Translations under genes and position numbers: made by a program
Shown: one piece after another, positions 20,033 through 37,976 of the stretch
Layout: each line of letters begins with the position of its first letter
How positions within the stretch are numbered: position 1 is the stretch's first letter
Assembly (NCBI RefSeq): GCF_000092305.1
Contig: NC_014122.1
Coordinates: 682,001 to 746,000 of the forward strand
DNA: 64,000 nucleotides
Direction: 5' to 3'
Origin: Methanocaldococcus infernus ME
GTDB lineage: Archaea > AGJL01 > Methanococci > Methanococcales > Methanocaldococcaceae
The notes under the pieces: generated by a model
The model's database searches: none
Told to the model about the DNA's origin: nothing
Seen by the model: the letters and a program-made list of their open reading frames with translations, nothing else

Positions 20033-21142
20033 ATGGATTTAGGGACAGCTAAGTATATTATTCATGCTGAACTTATAGCTGATGGCTATATTGAAAAGAA
20101 TGATATCATTGGAGCAATATTTGGACAGACAGAAGGGTTATTAGGAGATGAGTTAGACTTAAGAGAATTACAAAAAAGTGGAAGGATTGGAAGGATAGAT
20201 GTTGAGCTAACCAACATTAATGGGAAGTCAATAGCTAAAATATCTATTCCCTCAAGTTTAGATAGGGTTGAAACCTCTCTAATAGCTGCTGCCTTAGAAA
20301 CAGTTGATAAGGTTGGACCATGTAATGCCAAAATAAAAATTATTGATATTGAAGACATAAGGAAGAGAAAGAGGAAGTATATAGTTGAGAGGGCTAAAGA
20401 GATCTTGTCTGAGATGATGGAAGATATTGACATAAATGCTATAATTGAGGAGATAAGGAATAGTGTCAGAGCTAAGGAAATTGTTGAGTATGGTGAGGAC
20501 AAACTTCCAGCTGGTCCAAATGTTGATAAGGATGAGGAAATTATCATAGTTGAGGGAAAGGCTGATGTCTTAAACCTTCTTAAGTATGGAATAAAGAATG
20601 CTATAGCAGTTAATGGCTCTTCAGTGCCTAAAACTATTATAGATCTCTGTAAGAAGAAAATAGTTACAGTCTTTACAGATGGAGATAGAGGGGGAGAGCT
20701 TATATTAAAAGAGCTTTTACAAACCTGTGATATTGACTATGTAGCAAGGGCTCCAAATGGGAGGGAGGTTGAAGAGCTAACCAAGAAAGAGATAATAAAG
20801 TGCTTAAGAAATAGAATTCCTTCCTACCACTACATAATAAAGGAGGAAGTGAAAGAACCTAAAAAGATAAATAAGTTCTCTAACTATTATGAGAAGTACC
20901 TTAAGCTAAATGAGGGAGAACTCTTAGTTATTGGAGATGAAGAAAAGCTTATGAAGTTAGAAGAGTATTTAAAAGAGCCTTGTGAAGCTGAGGCTTTGAT
21001 AGTTAAGGGAGATATAACACAGAGCTTAGTTGATGCAAGCTATGACAAGGTTAAATTTATTTTTGGAAAAAGTATTAAGGTGGCTAAAAAACCTTTAAAC
21101 CTCTCTCTCATCCCTTTTGGTGGTTTAGATGAACAAAGATGA
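20033..21142 (+). CDS. dnaG: DnaG-type primase (archaeal, exosome-associated)
   Basis: 369 residues, somewhat shorter than the ~400-residue M. jannaschii protein. The N-terminal domain begins DLGTAKYIIHAELIADGYIE with the GAIFGQTEGLLGDELDLREL segment typical of archaeal DnaG. The Toprim domain has EEIIIVEGKADVLNLLKYG with catalytic Glu, and VTVFTDGDRGGELI with the DxD motif. Archaeal DnaG can make short primers and is also a stable subunit of the RNA exosome that helps recognise A-rich tails. GGTGATCAC before the ATG gives good spacing. UPF0058 starts 14 bases before its stop and hisG follows. Confidence 0.95.
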   Translation: MDLGTAKYIIHAELIADGYIEKNDIIGAIFGQTEGLLGDELDLRELQKSGRIGRIDVELTNINGKSIAKISIPSSLDRVETSLIAAALETVDKVGPCNAKIKIIDIEDIRKRKRKYIVERAKEILSEMMEDIDINAIIEEIRNSVRAKEIVEYGEDKLPAGPNVDKDEEIIIVEGKADVLNLLKYGIKNAIAVNGSSVPKTIIDLCKKKIVTVFTDGDRGGELILKELLQTCDIDYVARAPNGREVEELTKKEIIKCLRNRIPSYHYIIKEEVKEPKKINKFSNYYEKYLKLNEGELLVIGDEEKLMKLEEYLKEPCEAEALIVKGDITQSLVDASYDKVKFIFGKSIKVAKKPLNLSLIPFGGLDEQR

Positions 21143-21425
21143 GCTGATACAATTACATCAGCTACTAATTTACATAAGAAAATACATTCAAAAAAAATAT
21201 AATGTGAGTGATGAAAAATTTGAGGAATATGACAATTTACACATCTATCCACATCATATACACAAAACAAAGATAGAGCATATATATGCTATCTTTATTT
21301 TGTCCTCAATTATCTCAAGGATATTATCTGAGCATGAGAAAGTTCCTAAGAGTATATCCAACTTACTAATGAACTGTAGCCTAAAAATTAGCAAGGAGAT
21401 AACAAGAAAGAGGAGGATGAGATGA
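21129..21425 (+). CDS. UPF0058 family protein
   Basis: A 98-residue small helical protein of the archaeal UPF0058 family, recognised from [20 protein letters not shown] and [20 protein letters not shown] and from its place between dnaG and hisG, the same order as in M. jannaschii. It starts inside the end of dnaG (14-base overlap) and ends by overlapping the hisG start by four bases, so translation of all three is coupled. Function is unknown; tight linkage to DnaG hints at nucleic-acid metabolism, but this is weak. Confidence 0.85.
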
Positions 21426-22288
21426 TACTATTTGCCCTACCAAATAAAGGAAGAATCTCTGAGCCAGTAATGAAAATCTTGGAAAAGGCTGGGTTAAAGA
21501 TAACGGCCCAAGGAAGAAGTTTGTTTGCCAACACTGTTGATAAGGATGTAAAAATTATGTTTGCCAGGGCTAAGGACATTCCTGAATTTGTAGCTGATGG
21601 TGTAGCTGATATAGGGATCACTGGCTATGACTTAGTCTTAGAGAGAGGAGTTGAAGATAAGGTAGATTTTCTATTAGACTTTAACTTTGGATTTGCAAGA
21701 TTAGTTTTAGCTGCTCCAGAGAACTCTGAGATAAAGAGCTTAGAAGATATTAAAGATGGAGTTAGGGTAGCTACAGAGTTTCCAAACCTAACAAGGAAGT
21801 TTTTTGAGAAGCTTGGGAAGAGAGTTGAGATTATAGAGCTAAGTGGAGCCACTGAGATAGCTCCATTTATTGGAGTAGCTGATATAATATCAGATTTAAC
21901 ATCAACAGGAACAACTTTAAGGTTAAATAAGCTTAGAGAGATAGCTGAGATAGTTAGGAGTACAACAAGATTAATAGGGAACAAGGAGAGCTTAAAAGAT
22001 GAAAGGAAAAGGAGGAAAATAGAGCAGTTAGTTTTAGCTATAAAAAGTGCTTTATTTGCTGAAACTAAGAAGTTAATAATGATGAATGCTCCAAAGGATA
22101 AGGTTGAGGAGATAAAGAAACTAATCCCTGGGATGTGTGGGCCTACTGTAGCTAAGGTTTTAAGTAATGATGAATATGTAGCTATCCATGCTGTGGTTAA
22201 TGAAGATGACATCTATAACTTAGTGCCAAAACTTCATGAGTTGGGAGCAAGAGACATTTTAATTGTGCCAATTGAGAGAATTCTTTAA
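21422..22288 (+). CDS. hisG: ATP phosphoribosyltransferase HisG (long form)
   Basis: 288 residues. It catalyses the first and feedback-controlled step of histidine synthesis, joining ATP and PRPP. The catalytic part has [51 protein letters not shown] and the PRPP loop [14 protein letters not shown]. The C-terminal ~75 residues ([20 protein letters not shown] onward) form the ACT-like regulatory domain that marks the long, HisZ-independent form inhibited by histidine. ATGA overlap with UPF0058 shows coupling. hisH lies 36 kb away with tbp, so the pathway genes are scattered as usual in this group. Confidence 0.95.
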
Positions 22289-32858: not shown

Positions 32859-33470
32859 ATGAGACTTCTAACCTTAGAAGAAGGAGAATTTGCAGTTAGA
32901 TATGCAAGGGCTGTTATAGAATCTCATTTATCTGGAAAAGAGCTTATTTTAGAAAGCTATCCTGAAATTTTCAATGAAAAAAGAGGGTGCTTTTGTACTC
33001 TCCACACATATCCAGAGAGGGAGTTAAGAGGCTGTATCGGAATTCCTGAGCCAATTATGCCACTGATTGAAGCTTTAAGAGAAGCAGCCTTAGGGTCAAT
33101 AAGGGATCCAAGATTTCCACCAGTTACCTTAGAGGAGATGGATCATATTGTAATAGAGGTTAGTATCTTAACCCCTCCACAGCTTATAGAGGTTAGTAAT
33201 CCAAAAGAATACTTAGAAAAAATAAAGATTGGAGAGGATGGGCTAATTATTGAGTATGGCCCTTACAGAGGCTTACTCCTCCCACAGGTTCCTGTTGAGT
33301 ATGGCTGGGATGTTGAAGAATTTTTAGCCCATCTCTGCTTAAAAGCAGGCTTACCTCCAGATATGTGGTTAGTAGAAGGAGTTAAAATTTACAAATTCCA
33401 AGCTCAAATTTTTGAAGAGCTTGAACCAAGAGGAAAAATAGTTGAAAAGAAGCTAACCGGTCCTCATTAG
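32859..33470 (+). CDS. AMMECR1 family protein
   Basis: 203 residues of the AMMECR1 family, conserved from archaea to humans. The near-invariant LRGCIG is in the stretch RELRGCIGIPEP; other marks are EGEFAVRYARAVIE, ALGSIRDPRFPPVTLEE and IEVSILTPPQ. The molecular function is unresolved; radical-SAM and MEMO genes are common neighbours in archaea but neither is here. GGTGAGAGA precedes the ATG. The last codons and the TAG stop (33468-33470) lie inside the SECIS hairpin of the gene on the opposite strand, so two constraints act on these bases. Confidence 0.95.
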   Translation: MRLLTLEEGEFAVRYARAVIESHLSGKELILESYPEIFNEKRGCFCTLHTYPERELRGCIGIPEPIMPLIEALREAALGSIRDPRFPPVTLEEMDHIVIEVSILTPPQLIEVSNPKEYLEKIKIGEDGLIIEYGPYRGLLLPQVPVEYGWDVEEFLAHLCLKAGLPPDMWLVEGVKIYKFQAQIFEELEPRGKIVEKKLTGPH

Positions 33471-33485
33471 AGGTTCCCGGTTAGC
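33452..33485 (-). promoter_or_regulatory. Archaeal SECIS element
   Basis: On the minus strand: GCTAACCGG (33485-33477), GAA (33476-33474), CCTC (33473-33470), loop TAAT, GAGG (33465-33462), A (33461), CCGGTTAGC (33460-33452). All thirteen pairs are Watson-Crick. The asymmetric internal loop GAA opposite a single A, capped by a short GC-rich stem, is the archaeal SECIS consensus. It follows the in-frame TGA of the HesB-like gene by about 180 bases. The gene's TAA stop (33483-33481) is within the lower stem, and the opposite strand is the end of AMMECR1. Confidence 0.93.
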
Positions 33486-33765
33486 AATCTCTACTGTTAC
33501 CAACTTTTAAGTACTTACCAAATAAGCTTCTTTTAAGCTCTATCTTTACACTACTAAGCCATTGCTGAGCCACTTTATCTAAGAAGATTTTAAATTCATT
33601 GTCATAAATTAACTTATCATCTTCCTTAGGCTCAGCAATGGCTACCCCAAACCTTGGGCCACATCATCCAAAGCCATCAAAGTAAATTATTACACTATCT
33701 GAACCTTTTTTCTTTAACTTCTCCAAGATGAAATTTTTAGCATCATTACTTATCTCAACCTTCAT
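33481..33765 (-). CDS. HesB-like selenoprotein (in-frame TGA read as Sec)
   Basis: 94 residues from ATG 33765 (GAGGTGG upstream) to TAA 33481, with one in-frame TGA at 33666-33664 (residue 34). The protein begins MKVEISNDAKNFILEKLKKK and continues VIIYFDGFG-Sec-CGPRFGVAIAEPKEDDKLIY, with no other stop. The FxGxGCxGPxFG motif is the hallmark of a HesB-like family, and Sec replaces its first Cys. A complete SECIS follows. HesB/IscA relatives carry or deliver iron-sulfur clusters; the Sec form is a known archaeal selenoprotein class from memory. A pseudogene is unlikely because the frame is open on both sides and the motif is intact. TTAATATATAAG near 33799-33810 is a likely promoter. Confidence 0.92.
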
Positions 33766-33925
33766 CTTTTACCACCTCTACGTATTAACTTAGCATTTCT
33801 TATATATTAAGTTTATGGTTGTGGCAATATTATGAACATATATTAAGAAAATTAATAATTATGGACATTGATGTGGTTTTTATTTGAGTTTATTAATTTA
33901 TATGTTAGAGTGTAACTTTCAGATT

Positions 33926-34368
33926 GTTTCCATCCCCTTAGGGGCGTTATTTTACTTTTGTTAGAGCATTTAAAGGAGACATACTATTACGATGTTTCCA
34001 TCCCCTTAGGGGCGTTATTTTACTAATGTAATATTGGATTTGTCAGTTGTTGAGAAGCTAAAATTTGTTTCCATCCCCTTAGGGGCGTTATTTTACTATT
34101 TAAATTTTTCAATTGATAACTTTTGAATAAATCCAAAGTTTCCATCCCCTTAGGGGCGTTATTTTACTTACCACCCATTTATTGTTTTGTCGGTTAATTA
34201 CTTAGGTTTCCATCCCCTTAGGGGCGTTATTTTACCTTTATAAGTTAAAAAATAAAGAATACTACTTTATGTTTCCATCCCCTTAGAGGCGTTATTTTAC
34301 AAGTTCATTAAAAACCATAGAAATTAGAATATTTAATTGTTTCCATCCCCTTAGGGGCGTTATTTTAC
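33926..34368 (-). CRISPR. CRISPR array, seven repeats and six spacers
   Basis: Seven 30-base repeats start at 33926, 33994, 34067, 34138, 34206, 34271 and 34339. Plus-strand repeats begin GTTTCCATCCCC and end CGTTATTTTAC; they contain the palindrome CCCCTTAGGGG. Spacers are 38, 43, 41, 38, 35 and 38 bases. On the minus strand the repeat ends GGGGATGGAAAC, the usual orientation for Methanocaldococcus crRNA with an ATGGAAAC handle, so transcription should run leftward from the AT-rich region at 34369-34852. Repeat six has one change (TTAGAGG for TTAGGGG). No cas gene is in the window. No spacer matches another part of the window by eye. Confidence 0.98.
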
Positions 34369-34852
34369 AAGGCAAAATTTTGCTTGTTTATATCATTTGC
34401 TCTTATAGTATATAAGCTTTATCCCTAATCAACAGACTGAAGGTTAGGTTCTTCTATTTATCTAAAAAGATCCGAAGTTTGATAAAAACCTTTACTTTCC
34501 TTAATACTAAAATAAAACCAAACCTCTAAACCAAAAACGAAATTTCCAAAGGGAAAATAAAATTCTAAAAATAAATAACCCAAAAAACTAAAAAAGCCCA
34601 ATAATTCACAAAAACCGAATATTCAAATTAATAACATTAAGCTACCCTCCGAAGCCAACTAAAAACCAAATAAAAACCAACAAAATCATCTAAAAACAAC
34701 AAAAACCTAAAAACAAAAACTTTAAACAAGATAAAACTCTAAAATAACCTAAAATAAATTATAAACATTCACACCTAAAAGAGTAAAAAAAATCTGAATA
34801 AAATTAGTTAAAAAAAATATAGAATAGAACTTACCCAAACATTCAAAAAAAC
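34369..34852 (-). other. CRISPR leader region, no gene
   Basis: 484 bases without a plausible gene in any frame. On the minus strand it is T-rich and nearly devoid of C; I counted roughly 14 G on the plus strand over the 340 bases from about 34500. A TATA-like CTTATATACT (34416-34407) would start transcription near 34385, about 17 bases before the first repeat in the reading direction. Low-complexity leaders of this length are known for CRISPR loci of this genus. The far end adjoins the hfq-like gene's stop. Confidence 0.7.
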
Positions 34853-35138: not shown

Positions 35139-37976
35139 TTAACCTTTAACCACTCCCATAGGTTTCATTCTTGCAACCTTTAAAGAAATTCCAGCCTTAT
35201 GACAGGTGTCAGCTACTAAGTCTATACTTTTATAAGCCTCAGGGGCTTCTTCAGCTAAGACAGCCTTAGAGTCACTTAACGCTATAATTCCCATCTCTTC
35301 CAGCCTTCTTTTTATCTCTGAGCCTCTCCATAACTTTAATGCCTTTGCTCTACTCAACTTCCTCCCAGCCCCATGGGCAGTTGATCCAAAGGTTTCTTCC
35401 ATAGCCTTCTCTGTCCCTTTCATAACATAGGAAGCTGTTCCCATGTCTCCTGGTAAGAGGACAGGCTGGCCAATATCTTTATAGTCTTTTGGTAAAACCT
35501 CATGCCCAGGAGGGAAGGCTCTTGTAGCTCCTTTTCTATGGACTACAACTTTAACTTTTTTCTTCTCAATTCTATGCTCTTCCTTCTTAGCTATGTTGTG
35601 GGCTACATCATAAACTATTTCCATCTCCAAGTCTTCAGCATGTATCTTAAACACTTCTTCAAAGCTTTCCCTAACCCAGTGAGTTATCATCTGCCTATTA
35701 GCCCATGCATAGTTTGCAGAGCAACACATAGCCTTATAGTAAGCTTGTCCCTCTTCAGATTCAAATGGAGCACAGGCTAACTGTCTATCTGGGATAGAGA
35801 TGTTATACTTCTTATAAGCCTTCTCCAAGATTTTTAAATAGTCAGTACAAACCTGATGTCCTAACCCCCTTGATCCAGTATGGACAAGGATAACAACCTG
35901 ATCTTTAAATAACCCATAAGCTTCAGCTGCCTCTTCATCAAATATTTGTTCAACATACTGAACCTCTAAGAAGTGGTTTCCACTTCCTAAGGATCCAAGC
36001 TGAGCTCTTCCTCTATCTTTAGCCTTTTCAGACACATAGGAAGAGTCAGCATCTTCCATACAACCATTTTCTTCAATATATTTTATATCCTCTTTCCAAC
36101 CAAAGCCCTCTTTAACAGCCCACTTAGCCCCTTCCTCTAAAACATCATCCATAACATCCTTACTAAACTTTATAATTCCTTTACTACCTAAACCTGAAGG
36201 AACATTCCTGAATAGTGTTTTAACCAACTCCTTTATTTTTGGTTCAACCTCTTCTCTTGTTAAATTAGTTCTTATTAGTCTAACTCCACAGTTATGAACA
36301 ACAATTCCATTAGCTATGAAGTTATGGGCTTTATCTACTATAGAGATGTCATACAACTTAGAGTTATATGGGATTACTTCTATCTTCTCAACTTCATCTA
36401 AAACAAATCCTCCCATAACTCCATACTCTTTTACAAACTCTTTATATGTTAAAAAGTTCTTTGGTACTCTAACATTTTCTACTTTTTCATAAATTACCCT
36501 CTCTATAAATCTTCTATTTACCCACGTATTCTTAATAGAGGAATAAACATTAGAAAGACTTTTATGTTCATAAAGCTCTATAGCCTTTTTTATAGCCTTC
36601 TTTCTTATGGCTTTAACATATTCTTTATATTTTAGATATGCATAAGCTAACAATCCTTCCTCTTTCTTGTCTTTTGAGTATTCATAACCTACTTTCCCTA
36701 AGAATTGCTTTATACTTTCTTCATTCACAATAGATAGCCTATAAGAAACTCTATTTTCCAGAGCCTTAATTTCATAAATTATACTCTCAACTCCAAACTC
36801 TAAGAGAATCTCTCTAATGTCTTCTAAGTAGGATAGGAGATTTTCTTTAAGGGAACTTATCTTAGACTGTGTAAGTGAGATTGGTAGAGGAGTGTATCTT
36901 TTAAAGAAAATCTTGCTACCATCAGCTCCAAACAATCCTGCTAAGAAATTTCTTTTAATCCAAAGTGGAGCCTCCTTTATCCACTCAGGAACTTTATAAG
37001 AAACTTCAGTCTTTTTTCCTATTGGCATTCCAAGCTTATGCATGAATAAGGCAAAAGCCTTAGATGATACCTTTATAAAGTTATCTTCTTTCTTATTGTA
37101 TATTTTTGAAGCTTTTATTCCTAACTTTTCTAAATCTTTTTTAACCTCTAATAACTCCTCTTTCTTCCCATAGAATGCCAAATACAACTTTCCAGTTTTT
37201 TCTCTAACAATAATTCCATCTCCTAAGGCAAACCCTAACAATCTTGCAATTATTCCTATCTTCTCATGATTCATTCTTAGAGGGATCAATCCCCTATCCT
37301 TTAGATATTTAATTATTTGCTTATCACAATCTTTAAAGTCTTCTTCATCCAATATTATTTTATCAGAAGGCTCTTCATACTCAACCCCTTCAAAAGGATA
37401 AACCACTACTTTATCTCCCTCTCTTATCATTCCCATTGGAACATATCCATTAATTGTTAAAATTGGATGATCAGGACTTCCCTTTAAAACCTTTCCACTC
37501 CTTGTTTTTATCATAATTATTTTACCATCTCCCTCTCTCTCAGAAATAAAGAGAATATTAGAAAAGCTTTCTCTACCTTCTTCTATATTATATATCTTAA
37601 GCCTCTCTCTAAGATTTTCTTTAAGCTCCTTAATTTTTATCCAATATCCCTCCTCTGTTAGAACTTTACTATCCTCAGATAGGCAGTTGATATCAAATCC
37701 AACTCCACCAGGGCTTATAATTCCATTTTTTTGATCAAAGGCAGCAACCCCTCCAATACAGAAGCCATAGCCATAATGAACATCTGGCATAGCTATAGAA
37801 TATTTATAAATTCCAGGTAGGCAAGAGACATTAGCTATTTGCTCTAAAACTTCACTCTCAAGCTCATCCAATAAAATCTCATTTAAGTAAATTCTCCCTG
37901 GAACTCTCATACATTCTTTATAATCCTTAGGCAATTCCCAAACAACCTCACCCACTCTCTTTAAAATCTCTTTCAT
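35139..37976 (-). CDS. rtcB: RNA ligase RtcB, interrupted by an intein
   Basis: 945 residues, of which 98-562 are an intein; the mature ligase is 480 residues (97 + 383), the normal RtcB length. RtcB joins 2',3'-cyclic phosphate and 5'-OH RNA ends with GTP and Mn2+, and seals tRNA halves after intron removal, such as that of the tRNA-Trp at 2 kb. Mature motifs include [29 protein letters not shown] (intein insertion at a metal-site Cys), [36 protein letters not shown] with the guanylylated His, and the MGIIALSDS segment. The start ATG at 37976 has a GGGTGG-type site. It is 14 bases from the ligase gene upstream. Confidence 0.96.
36291..37685 (-). mobile_element. RtcB intein with LAGLIDADG homing endonuclease
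   Basis: 465 residues, C98 to N562 of the precursor. The N-terminal splice block is [20 protein letters not shown] with nucleophile Cys. Block B is around [17 protein letters not shown]. The two LAGLIDADG-type motifs are [13 protein letters not shown] and [14 protein letters not shown]. The C-terminal block is [10 protein letters not shown] followed by Cys, so the His-Asn pair and the +1 nucleophile are all present. All required splicing residues are intact, and both aspartates of the endonuclease motifs are present, so it may still home. M. jannaschii has an intein in its rtcB gene as I remember. Confidence 0.95.

Follow-up and report, generated by a model that had tools for sequence, protein, structure and literature searches.

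HesB-like proteins belong to the recognised archaeal selenoproteins (PMC2933860, PMC8211752, and PMC13188914), and PMC13188914 gives TIGR01911 and the UxGP motif for them. The family member from M. maripaludis was identified by mutagenesis and 75Se labelling, as cited in PMC11097638. M. infernus ME appears with aSelB and SelD in PMC3037878, and PMC11227280 refers to the SECIS of its selD; the methanogen SECIS motif with a GAA/A bulge is used here as defined in PMC11881835. Because HesB-like selenoproteins are tabulated for methanogens, 75Se-labelled in M. maripaludis, and accompanied by published aSelB and SelD entries for M. infernus, the hesB selenoprotein described below is a correct but already known and ordinary finding. 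The novelty implied by the preliminary description of this DNA does not stand: published work already covers the family, its Sec residue, and the use of Sec by these methanogens, and a curated family model exists; the gene is a further instance of a family already in the literature. It does illustrate that a recoded gene and its SECIS are detectable from raw sequence by a first-pass reader. The elements of the locus, situated in a 64-kb stretch of M. infernus DNA (hereafter the window), are as follows:

33481..33765, minus strand: coding sequence of the HesB-like selenoprotein, 94 codons, ATG to TAA
33664..33666, minus strand: TGA codon 34, the predicted selenocysteine (U34), aligned to the first of the Cys residues conserved in IscA-type proteins
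33484..33486, minus strand: final codon, Cys94; nearly all family members have Cys at the C-terminus
33452..33485, minus strand: archaeal SECIS with a 9-bp basal stem, GAA/A bulge, 4-bp apical stem, and 4-nt loop
33772..33779, minus strand: Shine-Dalgarno-like GAGGTGGT, 6 nt ahead of the ATG, as read from the sequence
33795..33830 (approximate limits), minus strand: conserved upstream block around TATTGCCACAACCATAAACTTAATATATAAG, aligned in 6 genomes
32859..33470, plus strand: convergent neighbour, its 3' end reaching into the SECIS, which is on the other strand

The frame 33765-33481 of the minus strand contains one in-frame TGA, at codon 34 (33666-33664), and its translated product reads MKVEISNDAKNFILEKLKKKGSDSVIIYFDGFG-U-CGPRFGVAIAEP...GNSRDC, with the Sec motif GFG-U-CGPRFG. 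Re-reading of the sequence thus returns the TGA codon, strand, coordinates, length (94 aa), and motif exactly as the preliminary description gave them. Its statements that the stretch would be blank to standard gene callers and that a ribosome-binding site precedes the frame also hold: standard ORF calling over 33481-33765 yields no ORF of at least 60 codons, and the Shine-Dalgarno-like site is present, its GGTG being kept in relatives. Within the window, hesB is the only TGA-interrupted ATG frame of at least 80 codons lying wholly outside ORFs of at least 100 codons. Another TGA-interrupted candidate, at 21129-21470, was rejected: with its TGA at codon 99, it resembles a normal ORF of 98 codons.

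The HesB-like assignment proposed earlier is confirmed by the match of the read-through protein to NCBIfam TIGR01911 (HesB_rel_seleno), which scores 101 bits (cut-off 66.35) and is continuous over residues 2-88; Pfam PF01521 (Fe-S_biosyn) is likewise above its cut-off. A hesB homologue is encoded in 33 of 36 Methanococcales genomes (M. infernus included), each copy with one internal TGA, and these TGA-bearing homologues span six genera. Among the 30 copies read, the TGA occupies the identical codon in all, with the downstream frame intact, and the C-terminal Cys is present in 29 (Tyr in the exception, L012). Preservation of the TGA and the following frame in 33 of 36 genomes shows that neither chance nor sequencing error produced it. 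Residues invariant past the TGA in a nine-sequence alignment are G36, P37, F39, D50, Y54, D55, D63, L70, S80, G83, and C94. More distant archaea encode homologues without the stop; in the one read, the non-Sec relative P0002, Cys is aligned to U34 and the tail is CSCG. The alternation of Cys and Sec at residue 34 that the preliminary description expected of the family is therefore seen, with Cys in the non-Sec homologue and TGA in the 30 Methanococcales copies read.

A SECIS had been announced after the gene without coordinates; it lies at 33485-33452 of the minus strand and reads GCTAACCGG-GAA-CCTC-TAAT-GAGG-A-CCGGTTAGC, with a GAA/A bulge, a covarying basal stem, and a folding energy of -20.9 kcal/mol alone. 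Its 5' end is two bases ahead of the hesB stop codon, which it overlaps; on the opposite side it takes in the final 19 bases of the convergent neighbour at 32859-33470. We take this neighbour to be AMMECR1-like. The surrounding 90 nt fold more strongly than shuffles (z = -3.2), and the element has the top score among the few such structures in 64 kb. Compensatory changes occur at all seven basal pairs tested, with 98% of cells paired across 20 distinct sequences; pairing falls to 49-61% when the partner is slid by one column in the same 20-sequence set. The scan accepted a SECIS at 26 of 30 homologous loci, while the L023 structure needs a mismatch. A covariance model built from the hesB SECIS elements, this one included, ranks the site first in its own genome among the 150 of 537 candidates scored. 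The eukaryote-type Rfam model SECIS_1 matches neither the hesB site nor the controls, and other Rfam matches near hesB were dismissed as CRISPR repeats and chance miRNA matches. The hesB SECIS elements thereby form a well-supported, covarying set.

The host genome, a single contig of 1,328,194 bp, encodes a tRNA-Sec with a UCA anticodon, PSTK, SepSecS, SelB, and SPS, the set by which a Sec-decoding archaeon is recognised. In-frame TGA codons are found in its SPS gene (LHGUACK) and its HdrA gene (CALU). The Sec machinery that the hesB gene was said to imply, and the further selenoproteins that were given as a possibility, are accordingly present in the organism.

As the frame is broken by a single TGA, it might be a Cys-type IscA gene hit by a nonsense mutation or misread in sequencing. 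Such a pseudogene is refuted by the identical TGA across six genera with conserved frame and residues past it, and the covarying SECIS downstream and the complete Sec machinery leave it a negligible probability. The standard code would alternatively give two small separate genes, or a peptide cut off after 33 residues at the TGA; this reading leaves the SECIS unexplained, whereas the full-frame model forms one IscA-type domain across the TGA and the TIGR01911 match is unbroken, so that it, too, is extremely improbable. The locus is almost certainly a functional HesB-like/IscA-type (TIGR01911) selenoprotein gene of a Methanocaldococcus, most likely M. infernus, and sequence evidence indicates that the UGA at codon 34 would be decoded as Sec. 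We know of no SECIS-binding factor in archaea. Insertion would most likely follow the archaeal route reviewed in PMC2933860.

A third possibility accepts Sec insertion and concerns function: the protein could be a selenium or thiol redox/transfer protein and not an Fe-S cluster carrier. The AlphaFold2 model (pLDDT 90.6, with the last three residues low) has IscA and SufA (1r94, 1x0g, and 2d2a; E about 1e-5, and 5e-6 for IscA 1r94) as top Foldseek matches, and Sec34 aligns with the first Cys that IscA-type proteins conserve. A classical IscA has three Cys (one Cys plus a C-terminal Cys-x-Cys); this protein has Sec34 and the single Cys94, and is IscA-like, not a classical IscA. The reduction of the C-terminal ligand pair to one Cys favours the redox/transfer protein, as does the M. 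maripaludis hesB disruption mutant, in which nitrogen fixation is normal (PMC11097638), a result that leaves a role in Fe-S assembly unproven. The fold and the position of Sec34 agree with the IscA metal-binding site, and make a pure redox/transfer function rather doubtful, if far from negligible. For the IscA-like selenoprotein, the predicted structure is that of IscA, Sec34 standing in for the first conserved Cys and Cys94 for the Cys-x-Cys tail. Its likeliest role would be that of an Fe-S (or Fe/Se) carrier or a redox protein acting through the Sec34/Cys94 pair; because one C-terminal Cys replaces Cys-x-Cys, either a metal site or a redox pair formed by these residues is plausible in the model.

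The upstream block reads TTGTGTT-AGTATTG-CATAACCATAAATTATATATA, contains TGGTTGTG...CATAACCA as an imperfect inverted repeat, and has counterparts in L002-L008. It is probably a TATA-type promoter, possibly with a putative regulator site beside the TATA box. A CRISPR array at 33925-34398, with seven repeats of about 30 nt of the GTTTCCATCCCCTTAGGGGCGTTATTTTAC type, begins roughly 160 bases ahead of the hesB ATG. Further along, the minus-strand ORF 35139-37976 (945 residues) looks by eye like an RtcB-type RNA ligase with an intein.

Three congeneric genomes, G001 (L005), G011 (L006), and G004 (L011), all Methanocaldococcus, keep the UGA and the frame, but no canonical SECIS lies close to their stop codons. 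In G001, GCTAACTGGAAAGTTAGC resembles a SECIS that has lost its apical part. Since a recognisable SECIS is missing from these three, Sec insertion may be of no importance in some species. Around the UGA of L006 and L011, a GAA bulge within the coding sequence might have served in place of the SECIS; it was discarded because the RNAfold structure has no A opposite it and because L004, whose SECIS is normal, folds similarly. Another genome, G023, encodes SepSecS, SelD with TGA, and hesB with TGA and SECIS; a search of it for tRNA-Sec gave nothing above the Rfam cut-off (best 36.9 bits).

According to PMC11227280, Sec use had been established for no archaea besides Methanococcales, Methanopyrus, and the Asgard group, and the paper leaves open whether others use it. 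G057, the sole member of its phylum among the archaeal genomes compared, contains two relevant genes:

L043:3194-3520, minus strand: HesB-like gene, its TGA falling precisely on the Sec codon and its product ending in Cys
L093:1-1230: SelD gene with TGA at the exact Sec codon (LHGUACK)

The sequence past the HesB stop is TATGAC-(10 bp)-AAAGTTTTAA-(10 bp)-AGAG, and that past the SelD stop is ATGA-AAAACTAGT-AAA-CCT-TTT-AGG-A-ACTAGTTTT-GA. Both hairpins carry the AUGA/GA motif of eukaryote-type SECIS elements; the SelD hairpin additionally has a methanogen-type AAA/A bulge. Hairpins with such features score similarly or higher elsewhere in the same G057 DNA, so the argument for these as SECIS elements is their position, not their score. 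Searches of this 92%-complete genome gave no SepSecS and no tRNA-Sec above cut-off. The contigs correlate at 0.96-0.98 with the other G057 contigs in tetranucleotide usage, a composition that by itself leaves contamination possible. Sec decoding, including a HesB-like selenoprotein, in an archaeal lineage beyond Methanococcales, Methanopyrales, and Asgard is quite possible on these grounds, if still tentative. The relatives lacking a SECIS and the G057 lead are more likely to yield something new than the M. infernus gene itself.

Compared with known systems, the gene most closely resembles M. maripaludis MMJJ_08070 (HesB-like, TIGR01911), with which it shares family, size, UxGP motif, 3' archaeal SECIS, and order; the M. 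infernus protein has Cys directly after Sec (UCGP) where MMJJ_08070 and TIGR01911 have Gly, Ala, or Arg, which is no difference in kind. The A-type Fe-S carriers IscA and SufA (1r94, 1x0g, and 2d2a) have the same fold as that predicted here, and Sec34 takes the position of their first conserved Cys, whereas the M. infernus protein differs by Sec for Cys, one C-terminal Cys for Cys-x-Cys, and a sequence identity of ~20%. The methanogen GAA_A SECIS elements of fruA, sps, and hdrA have the same two stems around a GAA/A bulge and the same G-C clamps; in contrast to these, the basal stem of the hesB element includes the stop codon and the end of the convergent gene.
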